Below are positions 1,872 through 25,562 of a stretch of DNA of 28,073 nucleotides, piece by piece. This DNA comes from a virus. Numbering within the stretch: the first letter of the stretch is position 1; every line of letters begins with the position of its first letter. The DNA lies in IMG/VR virus record IMGVR_UViG_3300020180_000101, positions 1 to 28,073 of that record; one strand, given 5' to 3'. The translations under genes and the position numbers were made by a program. The notes under the pieces are model-generated. The model had not been told where the DNA came from. It saw only the letters and a program-made list of their open reading frames with translations, and made no database searches.

Positions 1872-2263
1872 CCTACTATCACATCAAATACGGCAACCGA
1901 CTCTACTTAGCTGTTGAGGATATACATAATGTATTATGGACAAATGACATGAATAAAGCGATCACTTTTCTGAACCTTGATGACGCCAGCGAAGTGCTAG
2001 ACCAAATAAAAAAAGACACAGGACTCTATGAAGCCAGCATCGTGATGAACAACGACCTACTTACAAGCGACGATTTCAAAGAGTTATGTATTCAAGAATG
2101 GTCCAAGCACAAGACCATTAGCGTTATTGCTAGAATCGCTTCCCGTTATTACAGCACGCCTATAAAGGCTACTGCCATACGCAAGGTACTAACCTCGTGC
2201 GGCATCGTACTTCCTCCAATTAAAAGAGTCGCATCTATATACGATACGCAGTTAGGTCGTTAA
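1868..2263 (+). CDS. 131-aa hypothetical protein with HTH-like C-terminus
   Basis: The first ~75 residues read like a small alpha/beta domain. Residues ~80-120 (QEWSKHKTISVIARIASRYY then TAIRKVL) resemble a helix-turn-helix in which a short helix, a turn and a basic recognition helix can be imagined. A DNA-binding role is possible but is inference from pattern only. The gene is coupled by an ATGA overlap to the ORF upstream and is followed by a 59-base gap holding a palindrome. Confidence 0.5.
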   Translation: MTYYHIKYGNRLYLAVEDIHNVLWTNDMNKAITFLNLDDASEVLDQIKKDTGLYEASIVMNNDLLTSDDFKELCIQEWSKHKTISVIARIASRYYSTPIKATAIRKVLTSCGIVLPPIKRVASIYDTQLGR

Positions 2264-2271
2264 AATATTCC

Positions 2272-2300
2272 TATACTGGGGGGCATCGGGGATGCATCCC
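2272..2300 (+). promoter_or_regulatory. Possible -10 box and 12-bp palindrome upstream of the phosphoesterase gene
   Basis: TATACT at 2272-2277 is a good -10 hexamer, but I find no convincing -35. Eleven bases on, GGGATGCATCCC (2289-2300) is a perfect 12-bp palindrome near the expected transcript start, which could be an operator or a small hairpin. It could equally be chance in a G-rich gap. Confidence 0.22.
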
Positions 2301-2322
2301 AACACCTAGGGGGAAGCAAAGC

Positions 2323-3054
2323 ATGGCCAATTATTTGGATTTTAAGCTAGCGACAAGGGGGCATGGGGTTGTCGAGTTACTTACCAAAAAAGAGCTTGTC
2401 GTCCTTGCTATCCCAGACACTCATTTCCCATGTCATCATCCGGACACATTCCGATTCCTGAAAGAAATCCGCAACGAGTTCAAGCCCGATGTGGTTGTTC
2501 ACCTGGGCGATGAGTGCGACTTTGAGTCGCTATCTGTTCACGGTAAGAACCCAGATATGCCAGGAGCTATGGACGAGTACCATGCGGCACTCGAAGCACT
2601 TGGCGAGCTTTATAAAATCTTCCCCGATGTTTTGGTTTGCAGAAGCAACCACACAGAAAGACCGTTCCGCATAGCATACGCTTCTGGGCTGCCTTCTGAG
2701 ATGATACGCAGTTATCGGGAGCTTCTTAGGGCACCAGCTGGTTGGTCATGGCATGAGCGCATTATCATCAACGACTGTTTGTATATTCACGGAGACGCTG
2801 CTTCTGGTCCTAGTGGAACTCGAAAGCTTGTGAGCGACAATCGCATGAGCGTGTGTCATGGACATTTCCATGGGAACGGCGGCGTTCAATACAGCGCCTC
2901 TCCGTTCAATCAGGTCTTCGGTATGAACGCAGGATGTCTTGTGGACATTGCTTCCTTGGCTTTCAGGTACGGGAACAAATACGGAAACAAAGGCACGCTT
3001 GGCTGTGGAATTATTCGAGGAGGCAGGGAGGCGCATTTCATCCCTATGCGATAA
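2323..3054 (+). CDS. Calcineurin-like metallophosphoesterase
   Basis: The 243-aa protein shows the ordered metal-binding motifs of the calcineurin-like phosphoesterase fold: PDTH (D32, H34), LGDECD (D63, with D66), CRSNHTER (N109, H110; the usual GNHE is changed to SNHT), IHGD (H156) and CHGHFH (H179, H181, H183). These bind two metals and hydrolyse phosphoester bonds; family members act on nucleic acids, nucleotides or proteins, and the phage substrate cannot be read from sequence. A G-rich ribosome binding site (AGGGGGAAG) precedes the ATG. It lies in the plus-strand accessory block, 2 bases before a metalloprotease gene, so both may be translated from one message. Confidence 0.88.
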   Translation: MANYLDFKLATRGHGVVELLTKKELVVLAIPDTHFPCHHPDTFRFLKEIRNEFKPDVVVHLGDECDFESLSVHGKNPDMPGAMDEYHAALEALGELYKIFPDVLVCRSNHTERPFRIAYASGLPSEMIRSYRELLRAPAGWSWHERIIINDCLYIHGDAASGPSGTRKLVSDNRMSVCHGHFHGNGGVQYSASPFNQVFGMNAGCLVDIASLAFRYGNKYGNKGTLGCGIIRGGREAHFIPMR

Positions 3055-3056
3055 CA

Positions 3057-3392
3057 ATGCTCACATTTAAAAAGCCAAATCAAATAAAGGTTAAACAATT
3101 AAATAAAAAATATGGATCAAGCTTTGTAGCTGGCAGACGCCGTTATAAAATCGTTTGGTGCGAGTGGTTGAAATGGTCTGATCGTGGGCTGTTAGGTCTC
3201 TGTGATTCGGATAACTGTAAGATATATGTGACACTCTCTGAGATTAAACAAACACTTGCCCACGAGCTGATGCACGCTGAGATATATGAAATCGGGATGC
3301 GTCAAATGCCGAGTTGGAATCAAGACCTAGAGGAGCTAGTTTGTGAATGTGCTTCAAGAATGTTTTCACAATTCTATATCGGTCGTGGATGA
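3057..3392 (+). CDS. Minimal HExxH zinc metalloprotease-like protein
   Basis: The 111-aa protein has a zincin motif LAHELMHAEIY (H69, E70, H73) and a downstream acidic helix (DLEELVCECASRMF) in which E93 or E97 could be the third zinc ligand. This layout (strands, HExxH helix, acidic helix, no other domain) matches the small SprT/ImmA-like metallopeptidases common in phages. The ATG at 3057 is chosen because it follows the upstream stop codon by 2 bases; the frame is open further upstream, but that part overlaps the phosphoesterase gene. No close ribosome binding site, so re-initiation is likely. Substrate unknown. Confidence 0.75.
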   Translation: MLTFKKPNQIKVKQLNKKYGSSFVAGRRRYKIVWCEWLKWSDRGLLGLCDSDNCKIYVTLSEIKQTLAHELMHAEIYEIGMRQMPSWNQDLEELVCECASRMFSQFYIGRG

Positions 3393-3555
3393 TGCAATGT
3401 GTGCCCAAACTTTCAACGCTTGGCTAGATGCTCAAGATGAGCTTGATGTGGTCATGACTAGCAGTGAGAAGTTTTATATAATCCTACTATCAGATCATAC
3501 ACTGATCGCTAGTGAATTACTCTGGGACTTGTTGACAATCGCTAAAACGAATTAG
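3343..3555 (+). CDS. 70-aa hypothetical protein
   Basis: The GTG at 3343 is supported by AGGAG at 3331-3335, 7 bases upstream, inside the metalloprotease gene, giving a 50-base overlap in another frame. A shorter ATG start at 3397 has no ribosome binding site. The protein is acidic, with a hydrophobic C-terminal half (FYIILLSDHTLIASELLWDL). It is small enough to be a regulator or partner of the metalloprotease, but nothing in the sequence proves this. No family recognised. Confidence 0.5.
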   Translation: MNVLQECFHNSISVVDDAMCAQTFNAWLDAQDELDVVMTSSEKFYIILLSDHTLIASELLWDLLTIAKTN

Positions 3556-3566
3556 AGACTAGCGCC

Positions 3567-4541
3567 ATGCGTATCCTATATGTTACACCGAACCCATCCG
3601 ATCCACTCGCTTTCTATCGTGGCTCAGTTCCACTCTCTCGCATGCGTAAGTCACACGGCATTGATTTCAGCTATGCCGATTCTGTCGGATGGAATCATAT
3701 AGTTGATCATGACATTATATTCTTTCAACGACCCTTCACCCCACAGCATCTTCAAGTGATGCGCATGGCGAAGGATTGGGGTAAGAAGATCGTTGTTGAT
3801 TACGACGATTGGCTCCATGATTTAATGCAGGATAACCCTGCTTATTTTTTATACGAGCGCTCTAAGGCGTTCGTGTCAGAGGCCGAGTCGTTGGCCGATG
3901 TGATAATGGTAGCTACTGAAAAGATGCAAGAGCTATACTCAGCGCGTGGCATTAAAAGCGTTGTAGTACCTAACGCCTACGACACCGAGCTATTCACTCC
4001 ATGCGATGTAAGCGATAGATCTAAGATTGTTCTATGGAGAGGGAGCAACTCGCACCTAATGGATAACTTCTCGGTGCGCTCTGGATGGCTTGAGCTTATC
4101 AAGCAGCATACTGATTGGCAGTTCGTGTTTATGAACGTACCGCCTTGGTGGCTATTCGCTGACTTCGAGAACACGCACATCGTAGAGGGTAAGGACATAA
4201 TCCAGTACATTAAAAGCCTAGAGGAAACAAAGCCCGCTATCATGACTCATCCTCTTGTGGATTCAGACTTCAACCGAAGTAAGTCTATGTGCTCTTGGAT
4301 CGAGGCAAGTCATGCTGGCGCTGCGTTTGTCGGTCCTGATTTTAAAGAATATCAGCGCGAAGGAATCACTAACTATAAGGCTAACGATAGCGAGTCTTTC
4401 TTTAACGCGATTGATGGCTTGATTAAGAACCCTGAGATGATTATCGAGAACGCAAAAAAAGGCCAGAAGATTATCACTTCCAGCCTTTCATTAACCGAGA
4501 TCAATAAGATCCGTTATGAATTATTTCACTCGCTCATGTAA
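3567..4541 (+). CDS. GT-B fold glycosyltransferase-like protein
   Basis: The 324-aa protein begins MRILYVTPNPSDPLAFYRG, the first strand and loop of a GT4-like Rossmann domain. It continues with KKIVVDYDDWLHDL (an acceptor-side motif common in this group), VVVPNAYDTELF at the domain linker, and a second domain with KIVLWRGSNSH, WLFADF and a C-terminal SWIEASHAGAAFVGPDFKEY in the usual nucleotide-sugar site. Family members transfer sugars; in phages they modify DNA bases, surface polysaccharides or virion proteins, and which applies here cannot be told. Its last 16 bases overlap the end of the convergent adhesin gene, and its 3' part carries the terminator of the opposite operon. Confidence 0.8.
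   Translation: MRILYVTPNPSDPLAFYRGSVPLSRMRKSHGIDFSYADSVGWNHIVDHDIIFFQRPFTPQHLQVMRMAKDWGKKIVVDYDDWLHDLMQDNPAYFLYERSKAFVSEAESLADVIMVATEKMQELYSARGIKSVVVPNAYDTELFTPCDVSDRSKIVLWRGSNSHLMDNFSVRSGWLELIKQHTDWQFVFMNVPPWWLFADFENTHIVEGKDIIQYIKSLEETKPAIMTHPLVDSDFNRSKSMCSWIEASHAGAAFVGPDFKEYQREGITNYKANDSESFFNAIDGLIKNPEMIIENAKKGQKIITSSLSLTEINKIRYELFHSLM
4454..4488 (-). terminator. Rho-independent terminator of the minus-strand late operon
   Basis: Read on the minus strand, AAAGGC (4488-4483) pairs with GCCTTT (4463-4458), and GAAG pairs with CTTC inside, separated by a symmetric 2x2 internal loop and a 7-base apical loop. The 3' arm runs into seven Ts in total (4460-4454). It sits 38 bases past the stop codon of the last minus-strand gene, the right place to end the late transcript, but within the coding region of the convergent glycosyltransferase. 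On the plus strand the hairpin is followed by only three Ts. Confidence 0.62.
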
Positions 4542-5200
4542 AAAATAGCAAGGGCACCGGCACCGCCAGCGCTTCCATCGGTGCCACCACCAGTAAGACC
4601 GGAGCCACCAGCGCCAGCGCTTCCGATAACGAAAGCGTAACTAGTTGTTGGGGTAACGCTATAGAGCCTGTAGCCTACTTGACCAGCAGCACCACCAGCA
4701 CCACCGTTAATGCCGCCACCTGTTCCACCGGTTCCACCGCGTCCGTATGATGTGCCACCGAAGCGCAATGGTGAAGGAGCCGCTACTCCTTGTGATCCGC
4801 TTCCTGTTCCCGAATTCTGGCCGCCACTTGCGCCACCGTATCCGCGAGAGATGAGAGTGCTAGAATCTATCTCGCCGCGCTCACCACCACCGCCTCCGCC
4901 GGCAACTGTTAAAGAGTTGAACGTGGTAGATGTTCCATCTGAGCCTGGATCACCTGGGCCGCCTGAGTCGCCGCCCTCGCCTCCACCACCGCCGCCACCA
5001 ACTGCGATTACGAGAATCGAGTATACGTTAGCAGGACATACCCAGTTACTTGATGTGGTTTTAATCTCGAATCCGAAAGGCCTGTCGATGAGTCCATTGA
5101 TCGAAGCGCCGAGCTTAGTGAATAGTGCCTCACTTGTGGGCTTCGTTTGCGCCACTTCAATGTCATTTACCTTTTCCAAATCATTTGCAATATTAGCCAT
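4526..5200 (-). CDS. Glycine-rich tail adhesin / fibre tip protein
   Basis: The 224-aa protein has an N-terminal ~60-residue linker region, then a domain with VIAVGGGGGGGEGG and repeated blocks (VAGGGGGGER, YGRGGTGGTGGG, GSAGAGGSGLTGGG), ending AGALAIFYMSE. This is the pattern of Gly-rich receptor-binding proteins in which polyglycine helices pack into a sandwich (compare the gp38-type adhesins of T-even phages). It is the last gene of the late operon and follows a large tail-tip-like protein, fitting a host-recognition role. The opposite strand is open for 167 codons and Pro-rich, which is only the mirror of the Gly codons. Confidence 0.78.
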   Translation of the reverse strand: MANIANDLEKVNDIEVAQTKPTSEALFTKLGASINGLIDRPFGFEIKTTSSNWVCPANVYSILVIAVGGGGGGGEGGDSGGPGDPGSDGTSTTFNSLTVAGGGGGGERGEIDSSTLISRGYGGASGGQNSGTGSGSQGVAAPSPLRFGGTSYGRGGTGGTGGGINGGAGGAAGQVGYRLYSVTPTTSYAFVIGSAGAGGSGLTGGGTDGSAGGAGALAIFYMSE

Positions 5201-21054: not shown

Positions 21055-22552
21055 CAGCTGCCTCCATCTTCTCTTCGAGAATCTCTTTCAGCTTCTCAGC
21101 CACTTGCTCATCATTCATATCTGGATACTCGGCCTTCAGCATATCAAGCATCGTGATTAGGTTTAGGTCTTTCTTCATCCCAAGAACCTCAAGACGCTCT
21201 CGCTCTGTCTCGATGGGCTTAGGTGAGGTGAACTTGATTATAAGATCACCGGATTCATCGATGTTCAGAGAGGATAACGCTTCGGATAGTTCACCGCGAG
21301 ACTTCAATAGCGAGTGCCACTTAGCATAGATGCGCCACATATGCGGCTCGTTATCTATGAAGATCTGACGCTGATCATTCACATCATCCATAGACTCGGC
21401 CTTATCAATCATCATAGCAACGCCAGATGGAAAGGCTATAGTGCCGTTTAGGTTAGACTGAACGCCTGATGTGCTCAGGTTGTTAGTAGTCAATAGAAGC
21501 GCCACATACATCTCAACCAATGAGCGTAGTTGATCAAGTGGAGGATTAGAGTTCTTAAACTCGAACGTCGGAACAGGATCACCTTCTTCGTAGGTCAGAC
21601 GTACCGCTTTATTCGGTCCCACCTTATACGTTTGAGGAAGGTCCTTGCCGGTAACTACAAGCTGACCATACCCTTGAGTAATAGCGATGTGGTTTACATT
21701 AGTGATCATCGAGTTGATGAGGATACCGCCATCAACTAAGTCATCGCCGCCTTGTGCCCAGAATGTTCCGTCTTGGTCCTTAGCGAAGTTAACGAAGGGC
21801 TTCTCCCCGATTGGATTTAGCTGATCGTTTGGGCCGCCTATGATCTGACCGCGATCATCACATACGAAGTGGTAGCTGTTAGACCAGAAAACAAATTGGC
21901 CTGTCTTCTGATCGGCTGGGCTGTCGGCGATAATCTGATCGATGCCATCACTGATAGGTGGGACCAATCCCATAGGTGAGGAAGTGCGGCCATCGCTGTT
22001 AGGTCGAACTGCTTGAGCACGTCCCATCTCTGGGCTGTAGTCGCTAAGGATATAGCATAGAGCGCGTTCACGCTCGCCGGCGATCTCGACAACATCGTAT
22101 AGGTAGGGAACGAGCGGCGTTACTTTAACCACTTGCTCGCCCTCGATGTCAGTCGGTTGAGGTCGGATGTATAGAGCGCAGTTCTTTGATAGCTCTAGGA
22201 AGCGATTGGTCTTTTTCATCGCATTATTGATGTCGGCTTCTTTCTCTAGGACTGAGATGTCGGAGCCTTCCATTTCACGCTCCACTCCATAAGAGTAGAC
22301 GCGTGCTTTCTTGTCGATGACCTTGCGGAGGAAGGATAGGTTAGATAGGGCATAGGCCATTTCATTAACGGTGTTTGCGTCGAACTGCCTGATGAGTAGA
22401 TTCCGAACATAGAAATGCGTCTGATCTTTATAGCATTGATAACGCTTGTAAGCCTCGGCCTTGCGGTTCTTGTTCTCGCTAGACCCGATTGCTTCAATAA
22501 TCTTCTTACGAATTGCTGGGTCTCTTAGTTGATCTTCATTTTGTAATATCAT
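20879..22552 (-). CDS. Portal protein
   Basis: The 557-aa protein follows TerL (4-base ATGA overlap). N-terminal helices (RKAEAYKRYQCYKDQTHFYV), a central wing domain, a stem/tunnel-like region (PPLDQLRSLVEMYVALLLTT) followed by TNNLSTSGV and GTIAFPSGVAMMIDKAESMD, and a helical C-terminal crown (ERERLEVLGMKKDLNLITML) match SPP1/HK97-type portals, which form the dodecameric DNA gate. The last ~58 residues are disordered in style (Asp, Gly, Gln, Ser-rich) and are encoded in the overlap with the next gene. The length is normal. Confidence 0.88.
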   Translation of the reverse strand: MILQNEDQLRDPAIRKKIIEAIGSSENKNRKAEAYKRYQCYKDQTHFYVRNLLIRQFDANTVNEMAYALSNLSFLRKVIDKKARVYSYGVEREMEGSDISVLEKEADINNAMKKTNRFLELSKNCALYIRPQPTDIEGEQVVKVTPLVPYLYDVVEIAGERERALCYILSDYSPEMGRAQAVRPNSDGRTSSPMGLVPPISDGIDQIIADSPADQKTGQFVFWSNSYHFVCDDRGQIIGGPNDQLNPIGEKPFVNFAKDQDGTFWAQGGDDLVDGGILINSMITNVNHIAITQGYGQLVVTGKDLPQTYKVGPNKAVRLTYEEGDPVPTFEFKNSNPPLDQLRSLVEMYVALLLTTNNLSTSGVQSNLNGTIAFPSGVAMMIDKAESMDDVNDQRQIFIDNEPHMWRIYAKWHSLLKSRGELSEALSSLNIDESGDLIIKFTSPKPIETERERLEVLGMKKDLNLITMLDMLKAEYPDMNDEQVAEKLKEILEEKMEAAVGNQGQQNNEQSDDSANRPGGDIDGDQRRDRGVPSGADPSQGGVENESGDGREVPEAQ

Positions 22553-24648
22553 CGGAACTTAATAATATCAGATTTTTCTCTTTTTCCAGACATAGGGTAG
22601 AGAATATCGCACCCATAATCCAGACCATCTGACGCATGAGTAAGAGCCTCATTCTTTTTAACCTTCTCGAAGGTATGCGGGTCCTGTTCCACCGCTCTTA
22701 GATCCTTGCGCATGGTTGGCATTTTATCTGGGTTAAACATGATAACGCGCTTATCCAAAAGGTTGTTCACGTTAAGCTGCCTAGCTCTCATTCGTGGAGC
22801 GGCCGGCTTAGCTCTTACCTCAAAGCCAGCGTTTCTCAGAATGATGTGATCTGAGTTCCCAGACGTTCGTCGATTCTTACCAGCAGGGTCGGGATAGATG
22901 ATCGTGTTGTCCGGTGTGAAATCGTTAGCTAGTAGAGCGTTAACCATCTTATTGGTGTCGGCGTTGTCAGGAATAACGATCTCAGTAAAGCCAAGTAGGC
23001 GCCCTCCTATCTGGTGCCACATGGTGGCAGTCATTCGTTGAACGTTGAAGTCGAGAAAGCAATGAGTGATTTCATGCTCCACACGCTGAATAGTTTTGTC
23101 TTCGTTGGCGTCTGTGAAGGCGTAGTAGAATTGGTTGCCGTTTAGGTTAACCCATAAGCCTTCAAGATAGGCTTGAAGAGTAACGGAGTCGTAACTCGCT
23201 CGCAGTGATTGGATGTAAGCTGGGTCTATGTTCTCGGCGTTGTCCATTGTTTTGGCATATAGGATGCGTGAGTTTTCCATGGGCTTCTCAACGAACAGAT
23301 CGTGCATGTAATTGCCGATAGATTCTGGCGTACCGCTTGAATAGATTTGAGGATGCGCAGCGCCCTTGACTCGAACGCGTCCGATACATTCTAGATATCT
23401 CTTACGCGATATGAGAGTGGCCTCGTTAATCGCCATGTCAGAAAGGTTAGGACCTCGAATCTTGTTCTCAGCAGTGAACAGGTAGAGCTTTCCCTTGCAC
23501 CATGGGAAGGTGAAGACCTTATCCGTTTGGTGGTAGCGATGCGGAACTTTATTCTCGTCGAAGATTTGCTCGAACGTAGGCAGCACGTCCTTCTTAAGTT
23601 CGGCGTAGCTAGGAGCTGTTAGACCGCCTGAGAAGTTGCGATTGATCCAACGAAACTTGATAGCCTTCATACATAGCGAATAAGTTTTTCCTGAGTTGTG
23701 ATGGATCGCACCGTCCTCTGTAACGTAGTTATTGGTCTCCAAAACGTGCATGTCCCAAACCCATTCGGCTGGTAGTTTTTCTATTGCCTGAATTGTGGAT
23801 TTGTTTAAGGTGCAAGGCAATGTATGATCTAAAGAAGATAGAGAAACTATGTGATGGTGTTCGTTCGAGTAGGGAGATTGCGGCGTTAACCGGCTACCCC
23901 CAGAAATATATTCAGGCCGTGGCATTAAGAAATAACTGGCCTCGTCGTTATCAAGGGAGCGCAAGCGGAAAGCTGAATGGTCATTATAAGTTTGGCCGAT
24001 CCATTGATCATGATGGCTATGTGCTTGTGTCAGCAACCTTAGATCATCCGAATGCTCGGCGATGCCCTGGAGATTTAACAGGTAGGATGCTTGAGCATCG
24101 GCGGACAATGGAAGCGCACTTAGGGCGCTACTTAGAAAAAGCGGAAGTGGTTGACCATGTTGATGGCTGCCACCTTCATAACGCGATAGAAAATCTTCGG
24201 TTGTTTGCCTCAAACGGGGATCACTTAAGAAGCACGATTGCGGGACGCGTTCCAAGCTGGAGTCCAAAGGGGTTTCTGAATATGAAATTTCGTCGCCTAC
24301 CGAAAGATCGCCAACGTGTCGATACATATGATCAGCGCAAAAAACTCGGTGAAGTGCGCTTGCTACAAATTCTCCTCGCTCATGCACGACTCGATAAAGA
24401 GTCTCCTTACCTTTTGGGAACGCATGGCTACCTAGAGAAAGCTGAGATCGATTACTCTTCTCGTTCCAAGATAGAACAGGCTGTGACTTCGTTATATCTG
24501 AAATGGGAACTAGACCCGAAGCCGTTCTTATTAAAGATGAATCTATAAGACACGAATATCCACCACTTAGGTGGATGAATCTAGAGTGCATATCGTTGTG
24601 GAAATCCGCTTGATGCGGAAGCATCTTATAGCGGATGTTAAGTTTCAT
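22549..24648 (-). CDS. Terminase large subunit interrupted by an intein
   Basis: The 699-aa precursor has exteins at residues 1-32 and 319-699, giving a 413-aa TerL after splicing. The joined Walker A is G29-G30-Y-S | S-G-K-T. Further ATPase motifs are NLSDMAINEA (401-410, catalytic E409) and YSSGTP (436-441). The RNase H-like nuclease has D533 (CFLDFNV), D587 (YPDPAG) and D674/D677 (HASDGLDYG). TerL pumps DNA through the portal and cuts it. Without splicing the ATP site is broken, so packaging depends on intein removal. Coupled by ATGA to the methylase gene upstream and portal downstream. Confidence 0.92.
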   Translation of the reverse strand: MKLNIRYKMLPHQADFHNDMHSRFIHLSGGYSCLIDSSLIRTASGLVPISDITKSQPVLSWNEKSNRSQLSLGSHAFPKGKETLYRVVHERGEFVASALHRVFCADHMYRHVGDLSVGDEISYSETPLDSSLERVPQSCFLSDPRLRQTTEDFLSRYEGGSHQHGQPLPLFLSSALSALPLSADAQASYLLNLQGIAEHSDDLRLLTQAHSHHDQWIGQTYNDHSAFRLRSLDNDEASYFLMPRPEYISGGSRLTPQSPYSNEHHHIVSLSSLDHTLPCTLNKSTIQAIEKLPAEWVWDMHVLETNNYVTEDGAIHHNSGKTYSLCMKAIKFRWINRNFSGGLTAPSYAELKKDVLPTFEQIFDENKVPHRYHQTDKVFTFPWCKGKLYLFTAENKIRGPNLSDMAINEATLISRKRYLECIGRVRVKGAAHPQIYSSGTPESIGNYMHDLFVEKPMENSRILYAKTMDNAENIDPAYIQSLRASYDSVTLQAYLEGLWVNLNGNQFYYAFTDANEDKTIQRVEHEITHCFLDFNVQRMTATMWHQIGGRLLGFTEIVIPDNADTNKMVNALLANDFTPDNTIIYPDPAGKNRRTSGNSDHIILRNAGFEVRAKPAAPRMRARQLNVNNLLDKRVIMFNPDKMPTMRKDLRAVEQDPHTFEKVKKNEALTHASDGLDYGCDILYPMSGKREKSDIIKFR
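23695..24552 (-). mobile_element. Intein in the TerL Walker A loop
   Basis: Residues 33-318 of the precursor (286 aa). Block A is CLIDSSLIRTASGLVPISDI starting with Cys1 (C33); block B is VASALH, with S97 and H100 replacing T-x-x-H; block F is VWDMHVLETNNYV; block G is HHN (H317, N318) followed by +1 Ser319. This is a class 1 intein. No LAGLIDADG or HNH motif is present in the intein frame: residues ~121-290 are Ser/Leu/His/Asp-rich and look like antisense translation, because the homing endonuclease is encoded on the other strand of exactly this stretch. Confidence 0.9.
23820..24548 (+). CDS. HNH homing endonuclease encoded antisense inside the TerL intein
   Basis: The 242-aa protein has an HTH-like N-terminus (SSREIAALTGYPQKYIQAVA, 17-36), the segment GYVLVSATLDHPNARR and an HNH core: GRMLEHRRTMEAHLGR (H93), VVDHVDGCHLHNAIENLRLF (H113, D115, N121, N125) and SNGDHLRST (H135). 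The C-terminus (RLLQILLAHARLDKESPYLL to SLYLKWELDPKP) looks ordered. ATG at 23820 has AAGG 9 bases upstream; a TTG at 23784 is possible. The gene lies wholly within the intein DNA, and its TAA ends 1 base short of the intein's first codon. No clear promoter seen. Confidence 0.88.
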   Translation: MYDLKKIEKLCDGVRSSREIAALTGYPQKYIQAVALRNNWPRRYQGSASGKLNGHYKFGRSIDHDGYVLVSATLDHPNARRCPGDLTGRMLEHRRTMEAHLGRYLEKAEVVDHVDGCHLHNAIENLRLFASNGDHLRSTIAGRVPSWSPKGFLNMKFRRLPKDRQRVDTYDQRKKLGEVRLLQILLAHARLDKESPYLLGTHGYLEKAEIDYSSRSKIEQAVTSLYLKWELDPKPFLLKMNL

Positions 24649-25562
24649 GATGCTCCATGCGTGTAAACCCTCTCAACCGACTCGGTGCTGGTTTGCGAGT
24701 TGGTCTTCTGGTGTCTGATGGCCATAACCACCTTCATGTCTGGTGGCGCGGTGTATTCAGAAACGAAGATTCGGTGCGGGGATGTACGCACCCATTGCCA
24801 AAACTTATCGTGATCGAATGACCGCGTGTATCCGGCTGTGTCGGCGTACGGTGGATCGCAATAGATAACCGAGTTCGGAAGAATCGGCACCGACTCATAA
24901 CTTAGTGACGTGGTAGATAATCGCGCTGTAGTCTGTTCGAGCCGTTGGAGCCGTTCGAGCCGTTCGAGCCGTTCGAGCTGTTGGAGCTGTTGGAGCTGTT
25001 GGAGCCGTTCGAGCTGTTGGAGCTGTTCGAGCGTACGCGTTTGGACATTATCTTTAACACGGCAAAACTTTTCTCGTGTAATCCTACTACATACTAATCG
25101 CCTAGCAAGAATGGATAGATGCTCCGGCCAGCTTGTTATCCCGAGTAGCTCGCTCGCTGTCTTATCGAACTCGCCGAACACCACGGCCATGTGCAGCGAC
25201 CGCTTGTAGGCTTCAATGTCCTTACCGAAGATATAAGTTCTCTGATTGTTCCCGAAGCTCCACACGATGCGCGTATAGGCGCAAGTCGCTTTACGAGCGT
25301 CGAACATCTCACGAGTAACCCACTCAGGTAGAAACCTGTCGTATGAATAGCGTCCGGCGATAACGTCCTTAACTAGCTCTACTGTGCTTGGCTCAAGCTC
25401 GTTATAATGAACGTGGCACTTTCGGTGAGCCAGCATGAAGTGAGACACAGAGAACCCTCCACCGAATAGGTCATAGAAGTTCTCGCACTCAGGAAACAGC
25501 GTTGCGATCTTATGGATGATAGATTGCTTGCTGCCCTGATAAGGCAGCCCGTACTTATCCAA
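24645..25562 (-). CDS. Dam-type DNA N6-adenine methyltransferase with a Leu-rich repeat insert
   Basis: The 305-aa protein shows D12-class methylase motifs: YGLPYQGSKQSI (motif X), ENFYDLFGGGFSVSHF (motif I, SAM binding) and VIYCDPPYADT (motif IV DPPY, 236-239). Residues 178-210 are a repeat of LQQ and LER triplets encoded by a 9-bp minisatellite, placed before motif IV where the target recognition region is expected. TTG at 25562 is the earliest possible start, because a TAA codon directly precedes it. It probably protects phage DNA or marks packaging sites. Placement between the ParB-like gene and TerL ties it to the packaging module. Specificity (such as GATC) is not deducible. Confidence 0.88.
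   Translation of the reverse strand: MDKYGLPYQGSKQSIIHKIATLFPECENFYDLFGGGFSVSHFMLAHRKCHVHYNELEPSTVELVKDVIAGRYSYDRFLPEWVTREMFDARKATCAYTRIVWSFGNNQRTYIFGKDIEAYKRSLHMAVVFGEFDKTASELLGITSWPEHLSILARRLVCSRITREKFCRVKDNVQTRTLEQLQQLERLQQLQQLQQLERLERLERLQRLEQTTARLSTTSLSYESVPILPNSVIYCDPPYADTAGYTRSFDHDKFWQWVRTSPHRIFVSEYTAPPDMKVVMAIRHQKTNSQTSTESVERVYTHGAS
24935..25033 (-). repeat. 9-bp minisatellite, 11 units, inside the methylase gene
   Basis: Eleven tandem 9-bp units read gtt(c/g)gag(c)(c/t) on the plus strand (gttcgagcc, gttggagcc, gttggagct, and a final gttcgagcg). On the minus strand they encode LER or LQQ triplets. The units differ at positions 4 and 9 in a shuffled order. Being a multiple of three, gain or loss of units keeps the methylase frame. 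Confidence 0.9.

Follow-up and report, generated by a model that had tools for sequence, protein, structure and literature searches.

To our knowledge, inteins have been described as carrying a nuclease within the same polypeptide, and an HNH-type intein was reportedly described by Dalgaard et al. in 1997. In-frame homing endonuclease domains are present, for example, in VMA inteins, and inteins of this kind combine a Hint fold and a mobility nuclease between its halves with empty alleles and nuclease loss (PMC8966425). An antisense nuclease gene inside a self-splicing element is known from group I introns, and one such enzyme, I-DsqI, has been shown to be expressed antisense and to cleave the empty allele (PMC9548176). 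The ShiLan element is an insertion into a phage gene that leaves the host reading frame open and conceals an HNH gene in another frame (PMC11855218). Mycobacteriophage TerL inteins are inserted at the P-loop of the terminase, and the study reporting them describes no antisense nuclease (PMC5050341).

Here, we analyzed a 28,073-base virus record from IMG/VR (IMGVR_UViG_3300020180_000101; hereafter, the window). Its TerL is a single 699-aa open frame on the minus strand (24648-22549), within which an intein of 286 aa extends from C33 to N318 (24552-23695). An HNH nuclease gene lies on the opposite strand of the same DNA. The features of the locus are as follows.

24553-24648, minus strand: TerL N-extein (MKLNIRYKM...HLSGGYS), matching the intein-free relative L212.
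23695-24552, minus strand: 286-aa TerL intein (C1...HHN) that interrupts Walker A between GGYS and SGKT (Intein_splicing; Hint fold predicted by AlphaFold and Foldseek; empty site in L212).
24277-24552, minus strand: N-terminal splicing half of the intein (aa 1-92), comprising blocks A and B, facing nuclease residues ~154-242 and doubly constrained (pLDDT of >90 over most of it; dN/dS of 0.41 for the intein and 0.40 for the nuclease).
23806-24276, minus strand: intein linker (aa 93-249), predicted from pLDDT to be mostly disordered, stop-free (dN/dS of 1.03 for the intein and 0.19 for the nuclease).
23695-23805, minus strand: C-terminal splicing half of the intein (blocks F and G, WDMHVLETNNYVTEDGAIHHN), without nuclease opposite (pLDDT of >90; dN/dS of 0.14 for the intein and 1.13 for a fake antisense frame).
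22549-23694, minus strand: TerL C-extein, starting SGKTYSLCMK and continuing Walker A (Terminase_6N, 1e-8; gapless in the intein-free L212).
23820-24548, plus strand: gene for the 242-aa HNH homing endonuclease, lying antisense within the intein (HNH_3, 5.7e-6; phrog_10730, 4.4e-53; AlphaFold pLDDT of 88).
23937-24254, plus strand: HNH core of the nuclease (residues ~40-145; EHR, VVDH.DG, HN, NLRLF.SN..H), with residues invariant in the alignment and common to free-standing HNH relatives.
24270-24545, plus strand: C-terminal domain of the nuclease (residues 151-242), which faces splicing blocks A and B and is found in neither the free-standing relatives nor the second group of elements described below.
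23807-23812, plus strand: putative Shine-Dalgarno sequence AAGGTG, 7 nt before the nuclease ATG (-3.9 kcal/mol), stronger in most relatives.

These coordinates bear out the initial annotation, which had described a complete 242-aa HNH frame fully nested in the TerL intein, with its stop codon one base from the first intein codon: the TAA occupies 24546-24548, and the single base 24549 separates it from the Cys codon at 24550-24552. Nuclease codon positions 1, 2, and 3 face intein positions 1, 3, and 2, respectively, as had been stated for nuclease position 2. The claimed overlap of the nuclease with splicing blocks A and B is real, but it extends over ~90 codons rather than ~85 (nuclease residues 151-242 opposite intein residues 4-95). 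An assembly frameshift was ruled out as the source of this architecture by the many independent records, including cultured phages, that share it.

The locus differs from inteins with an in-frame nuclease in that its nuclease is a separate opposite-strand gene lying over the linker and the N-terminal splicing half, whereas the intein polypeptide itself is nuclease-free. Unlike the window nuclease, the hidden gene of the ShiLan element is on the same strand as its host gene, a DNA methylase, and no splicing domain accompanies it; with an opposite-strand nuclease and a splicing domain, the window is not a ShiLan-type element. Its nuclease core is distantly but detectably related to the ShiLan HNH core (44% over 82 aa). 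The I-DsqI intron is an RNA element, with no reading frame to keep open and no dual protein coding. The nuclease family itself is already catalogued as phrog_10730, an HNH family, without an opposite-strand intein being noted in the entry. In the literature that we searched, which left most subscription papers and bioRxiv outside its scope, we found antisense nucleases of group I introns and a hidden same-strand HNH gene but no antisense nuclease in an intein.

We consider it very probable that the locus is a mobile intein with an antisense-encoded homing endonuclease; its splicing, the cleavage of the empty site, and the timing of antisense expression are inferred. This reading was built from computed observations (both genes, their shared phase, selection in each frame, ribosome-binding sites, an empty site, spread between unrelated TerLs, and nuclease-loss alleles) and has no splicing, cleavage, or transcript data behind it. 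TerL mRNA would be translated into a precursor from which the intein would splice itself, restoring GGYS-SGKT, and the linker facing the HNH core would have the sole duty of containing no stop codon. Transcription of the opposite strand and translation from a separate start would produce an HNH enzyme, which, in the DNA of a co-infecting phage, would cleave terL genes lacking the intein at the Walker A codons. Repair off the intein-bearing copy would then transfer both coding layers together.

The Intein_splicing profile matched the window intein at 7e-5, under the Pfam gathering cutoff, and scored above that cutoff in relatives from the second group. The intein has C1 and a terminal HHN followed by S, and C1, H284, H285, and N286 were invariant among 45 members. 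In block B, His68 was invariant, and the canonical Thr of TxxH was not conserved across the family; the missing Thr and the subthreshold profile score of the window both count against the proposed reading. AlphaFold models of the 45 inteins were folded with high confidence over residues 1-92 and 250-286 (pLDDT of >90 in both halves) and disordered over most of aa 137-246 (pLDDT of <50 over aa 146-246). The best Foldseek matches of the intein model were the Ssp and Npu DnaB mini-inteins (E value of 2e-7), indicating a Hint fold. Neither Pfam nor the predicted fold revealed a nuclease domain in the intein polypeptide, as had been claimed for the intein frame, and the linker was predicted to be disordered. 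An intein-free relative (L212), whose TerL is 64% identical, reads LHISGGYG|SGKTYSLCMK and represents the empty site; because this sequence crosses the site without a gap, it fixes the ends of the intein exactly.

Splicing activity was inferred from the cultured lytic phages that carry the element, without splicing data. Conceivably, the intein no longer splices and TerL is made from split or reinitiated pieces, as current annotations imply. In RefSeq, the TerL of Escherichia coli MEI003 (L145) is marked as a pseudogene whose N terminus is missing where the HNH gene is called instead, and the annotation of phage PHS3 (L008) likewise truncates terL at the antisense HNH gene, so that truncated or pseudo-TerL genes are indeed recorded beside HNH genes. 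Against this stand an open frame in nearly every full-length member with intact C1 and HHN-S/T, a dN/dS of 0.14 in the C-terminal half of the intein together with the predicted Hint fold, and the presence of the intein in cultured lytic phages that need TerL (PMC11445585). We therefore regard loss of splicing as highly unlikely. Gene callers pick the nuclease and label the terminase as truncated or pseudo, a practical consequence of the arrangement; the paper describing phage Ymer mentions neither an intein nor an HNH protein (PMC11445585).

The window nuclease belongs to the phrog_10730 HNH endonucleases, and its HNH_3 score (26.3) exceeded the Pfam gathering cutoff (24.8). Residues H93, D112, H113, N121, N125, N132, and H135 were invariant. 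Its AlphaFold model was folded throughout (mean pLDDT of 88); a PDB fold search with this model gave only weak matches, the best being I-HmuI (E value of 0.27), and its structural neighbors in BFVD were HNH proteins.

To evaluate selection, we took 18 non-overlapping pairs of inteins of equal length and, for each frame, sorted all possible and all observed substitutions into synonymous and nonsynonymous. Over the stretch facing the HNH core, the dN/dS was 0.19 (0.17 to 0.22) for the nuclease and 1.03 (0.87 to 1.21) for the intein. Opposite blocks A and B, it was 0.40 (0.32 to 0.52) and 0.41 (0.31 to 0.53), respectively, and divergence there was about half that of the HNH-core region; the pair formed by the window and its relative L017 was by itself too close to resolve this region. 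In the control regions, the C-terminal half of the intein, which has no nuclease opposite, gave 0.14 for the intein and 1.13 for a fake antisense frame, and the TerL extein gave 0.12 and 1.82 for the sense and fake antisense frames. The nuclease of the second group ends where it faces intein residues ~65-81. The overlap in this group gave 0.32 for the nuclease and 1.24 for the intein, and the N-terminal intein region without nuclease behaved as single-coding sequence (0.21 for the intein and 1.34 for a fake antisense frame). Since, in both groups, regions without a nuclease opposite showed constraint only in the sense frame, constraint tracks the presence of the nuclease gene. Selection on both strands, which had been proposed for testing, was thus found in the A-B region, where both frames are constrained; opposite the HNH core, the nuclease is constrained and the intein is approximately neutral.

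Openness of the linker is itself selected. Synonymous recoding of the nuclease introduced a mean of 5.1 stops into the linker and left it open in 1.3% of trials, and the linker was open in 55 of the 55 members tested. The intein segment facing the HNH core is, according to the models and the substitutions, a mostly disordered, freely varying linker, which limits strict dual coding to the N-terminal ~90 residues of the intein. Dual coding at the amino acid level is confined to the A-B region, and elsewhere the intein frame only stays open. The predicted structure agrees with the substitution data in that the folded parts are the constrained parts.

These data bear on whether the antisense frame could be a mere by-product, with constraint on the intein alone keeping the reverse frame open and similar and no nuclease being made. 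Long antisense ORFs are possible in GC-rich or biased genes, and there are no transcript data to contradict such an explanation. However, of the 1,252 changes in the HNH-core region, 779 fell at nuclease position 3 (intein position 2), compared with 266 and 207 at the other two; constraint on the intein would predict the opposite pattern, and no such effect was seen in the TerL extein. The nuclease is also the more conserved of the two proteins (50% identity versus ~32% for the intein), its HNH catalytic residues are invariant, and it has Shine-Dalgarno sites of its own. A chance antisense ORF was ruled out by the substitution pattern, the recoding test, and the recurrence of the arrangement, and we give the by-product explanation next to no credence.

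Shine-Dalgarno pairing at nuclease starts had a median of -6.6 kcal/mol, compared with -1.1 at 1,544 control antisense ATGs, and reached -9 or better at 43% of the starts; the window value is modest. A sigma70-like promoter (TTGACA-17-TATAAT-like) was located ~29 nt upstream of the nuclease start in many members (perfect in L048), with a mean promoter score of 10.05 versus 8.18 for controls. Because family members are related and not independent, family-wide P values overstate independence and are only descriptive. We searched for a sigma70-like promoter before the window's own nuclease and found none, which, like the modest Shine-Dalgarno value, counts against the proposed reading. The idea in the initial annotation that the nuclease could be expressed independently of TerL is thus supported by ribosome-binding sites and by promoters in relatives, but expression has not been measured, and no promoter was found in the window. 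With the nuclease on the other strand, expression apart from the host protein is possible; a regulatory role for a transcript antisense to TerL mRNA remains speculation.

The initial annotation had also called for a search for the same arrangement elsewhere, and it recurs widely. When TerL and nuclease proteins were queried separately by tblastn, both identified the same nine phage records, at the same places on opposite strands (seven Pectobacterium phages, from Ymer to Sabo; Dickeya phage Setonix; and Pseudoalteromonas phage PHS3). A nuclease profile search of IMG/VR and genome contigs yielded 86 loci. In 84 of them, one uninterrupted frame faced the nuclease in the same phase and contained an intein C-terminal end and a P-loop; the two exceptions were cut by a contig end (L090) or represented an ordinary HNH gene (L138). 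A second group, with a shorter nuclease (~195 aa) and the same nesting and phase, was found in Terminase_3 and Terminase_6 TerLs and in an SNF2 helicase. In total, 168 fetched loci (including some contigs fetched more than once) were nested, always in the same antisense phase, in cultured lytic phages, prophages, IMG/VR contigs, and one SNF2 helicase. A plasmid search gave no match, and among 398 Pseudomonadota genomes, phrog_10730 detected a nested copy only in the starting genome, plus a few weaker matches limited to the core. In free-standing HNH relatives (L184-L209 and others), the opposite frames were short or closed and mostly in other phases, so an open opposite frame is not a property of HNH genes. 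Nested nucleases clustered in the nuclease tree, with only the long-branch L138 falling inside; this suggests a single origin from sequence comparison, but tree support was low, and the inference is unproven.

Nuclease identity was at least 50% in 210 of 706 pairs whose TerLs scarcely align, indicating that the nuclease has spread horizontally, independently of the descent of its host genes. An allele nearly identical to the window (L003) has a 261-bp in-frame deletion that removes the N terminus and the first part of the core of the nuclease and keeps the intein frame, and other intein copies (L127, L128/L129, and L132) have broken nuclease genes. This pattern of gain, decay, and loss is usual for homing elements. 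Inteins with broken HNH frames had been named in advance as evidence that only one strand is under selection. Such alleles do exist; however, they fit the normal homing cycle, where the nuclease can be dispensed with but the intein cannot, and they are no evidence that selection on the nuclease frame is lacking in other members.

The same alleles weigh on the possibility that the nuclease is real but serves the phage, either in packaging with TerL or against competitors, the intein being merely its carrier. HNH proteins assist terminases in some phages, and nearly all of the hosts found were terL genes. Yet the nuclease-lost alleles keep TerL and the intein, one copy is in an SNF2 helicase, the distribution is sporadic with an empty-site relative (L212), and the nuclease is nearly always at P-loop sites within an intein. 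A phage-serving role therefore appears unlikely, though less easily dismissed than the other alternatives.

Returning to a mobile intein with an antisense endonuclease, the extent of its nuclease varies among relatives. The nuclease aligns with its free-standing relatives, and with 13 of the 14 PHROG families that match it, only up to about residue 151, and the C-terminal domain (151-242) is missing in the second group. On these alignments, the simplest reading is that, in the first group of elements, the nuclease frame was lengthened by reading back through the splicing domain; this direction of change is inferred. We moderately favor the broader proposal of a class of mobile inteins with antisense dual coding, in which the endonuclease would be made from its own promoter opposite the intein and, in one large group, the nuclease C-terminal domain would have arisen by reading splicing blocks A and B backwards, a single DNA segment thereby encoding both the N-terminal catalytic half of the intein and part of the nuclease. 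If so, a splicing half and a nuclease that share bases would resist separation by recombination. The C-terminal domain facing blocks A and B, which neither the second group nor the free-standing relatives possess, offers a direct test of the origin of new domains by overprinting. The locus provides a clear example in nature of a single DNA segment whose two strands each encode a functional protein, and selection can be measured by frame and region.

Several minor observations were made at this and related loci. The SNF2-type helicase with an antisense-nuclease intein (L176; frame 2475-4973, minus strand) indicates that hosts are not limited to terminases. In one TerL (L083; frame 2034-4859, minus strand), there is an apparent second intein, ending FYANGILVHN|CGDAF. 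The intein frame of L158 is interrupted, probably by a sequencing error; its close copies (L159-L161) are intact. The C-terminal part of the window TerL is mosaic (22549-23100): the window and L017 diverge after about NQFYYA, and the TerL of L213 is close to the window in its C-terminal part and different in the preceding half. An inverted repeat, ATCCACC-ACTTA-GGTGGAT, occupies the N-extein codons adjoining the insertion site (24558-24576); it was rejected as a conserved target feature, not being kept beyond L017 among the members compared. Finally, a DNA-methylase-like ORF (24645-25562) contains ~11 tandem copies of a 9-bp unit (GTTCGAGCC) at 24935-25032, encoding an LQQ/LER run.
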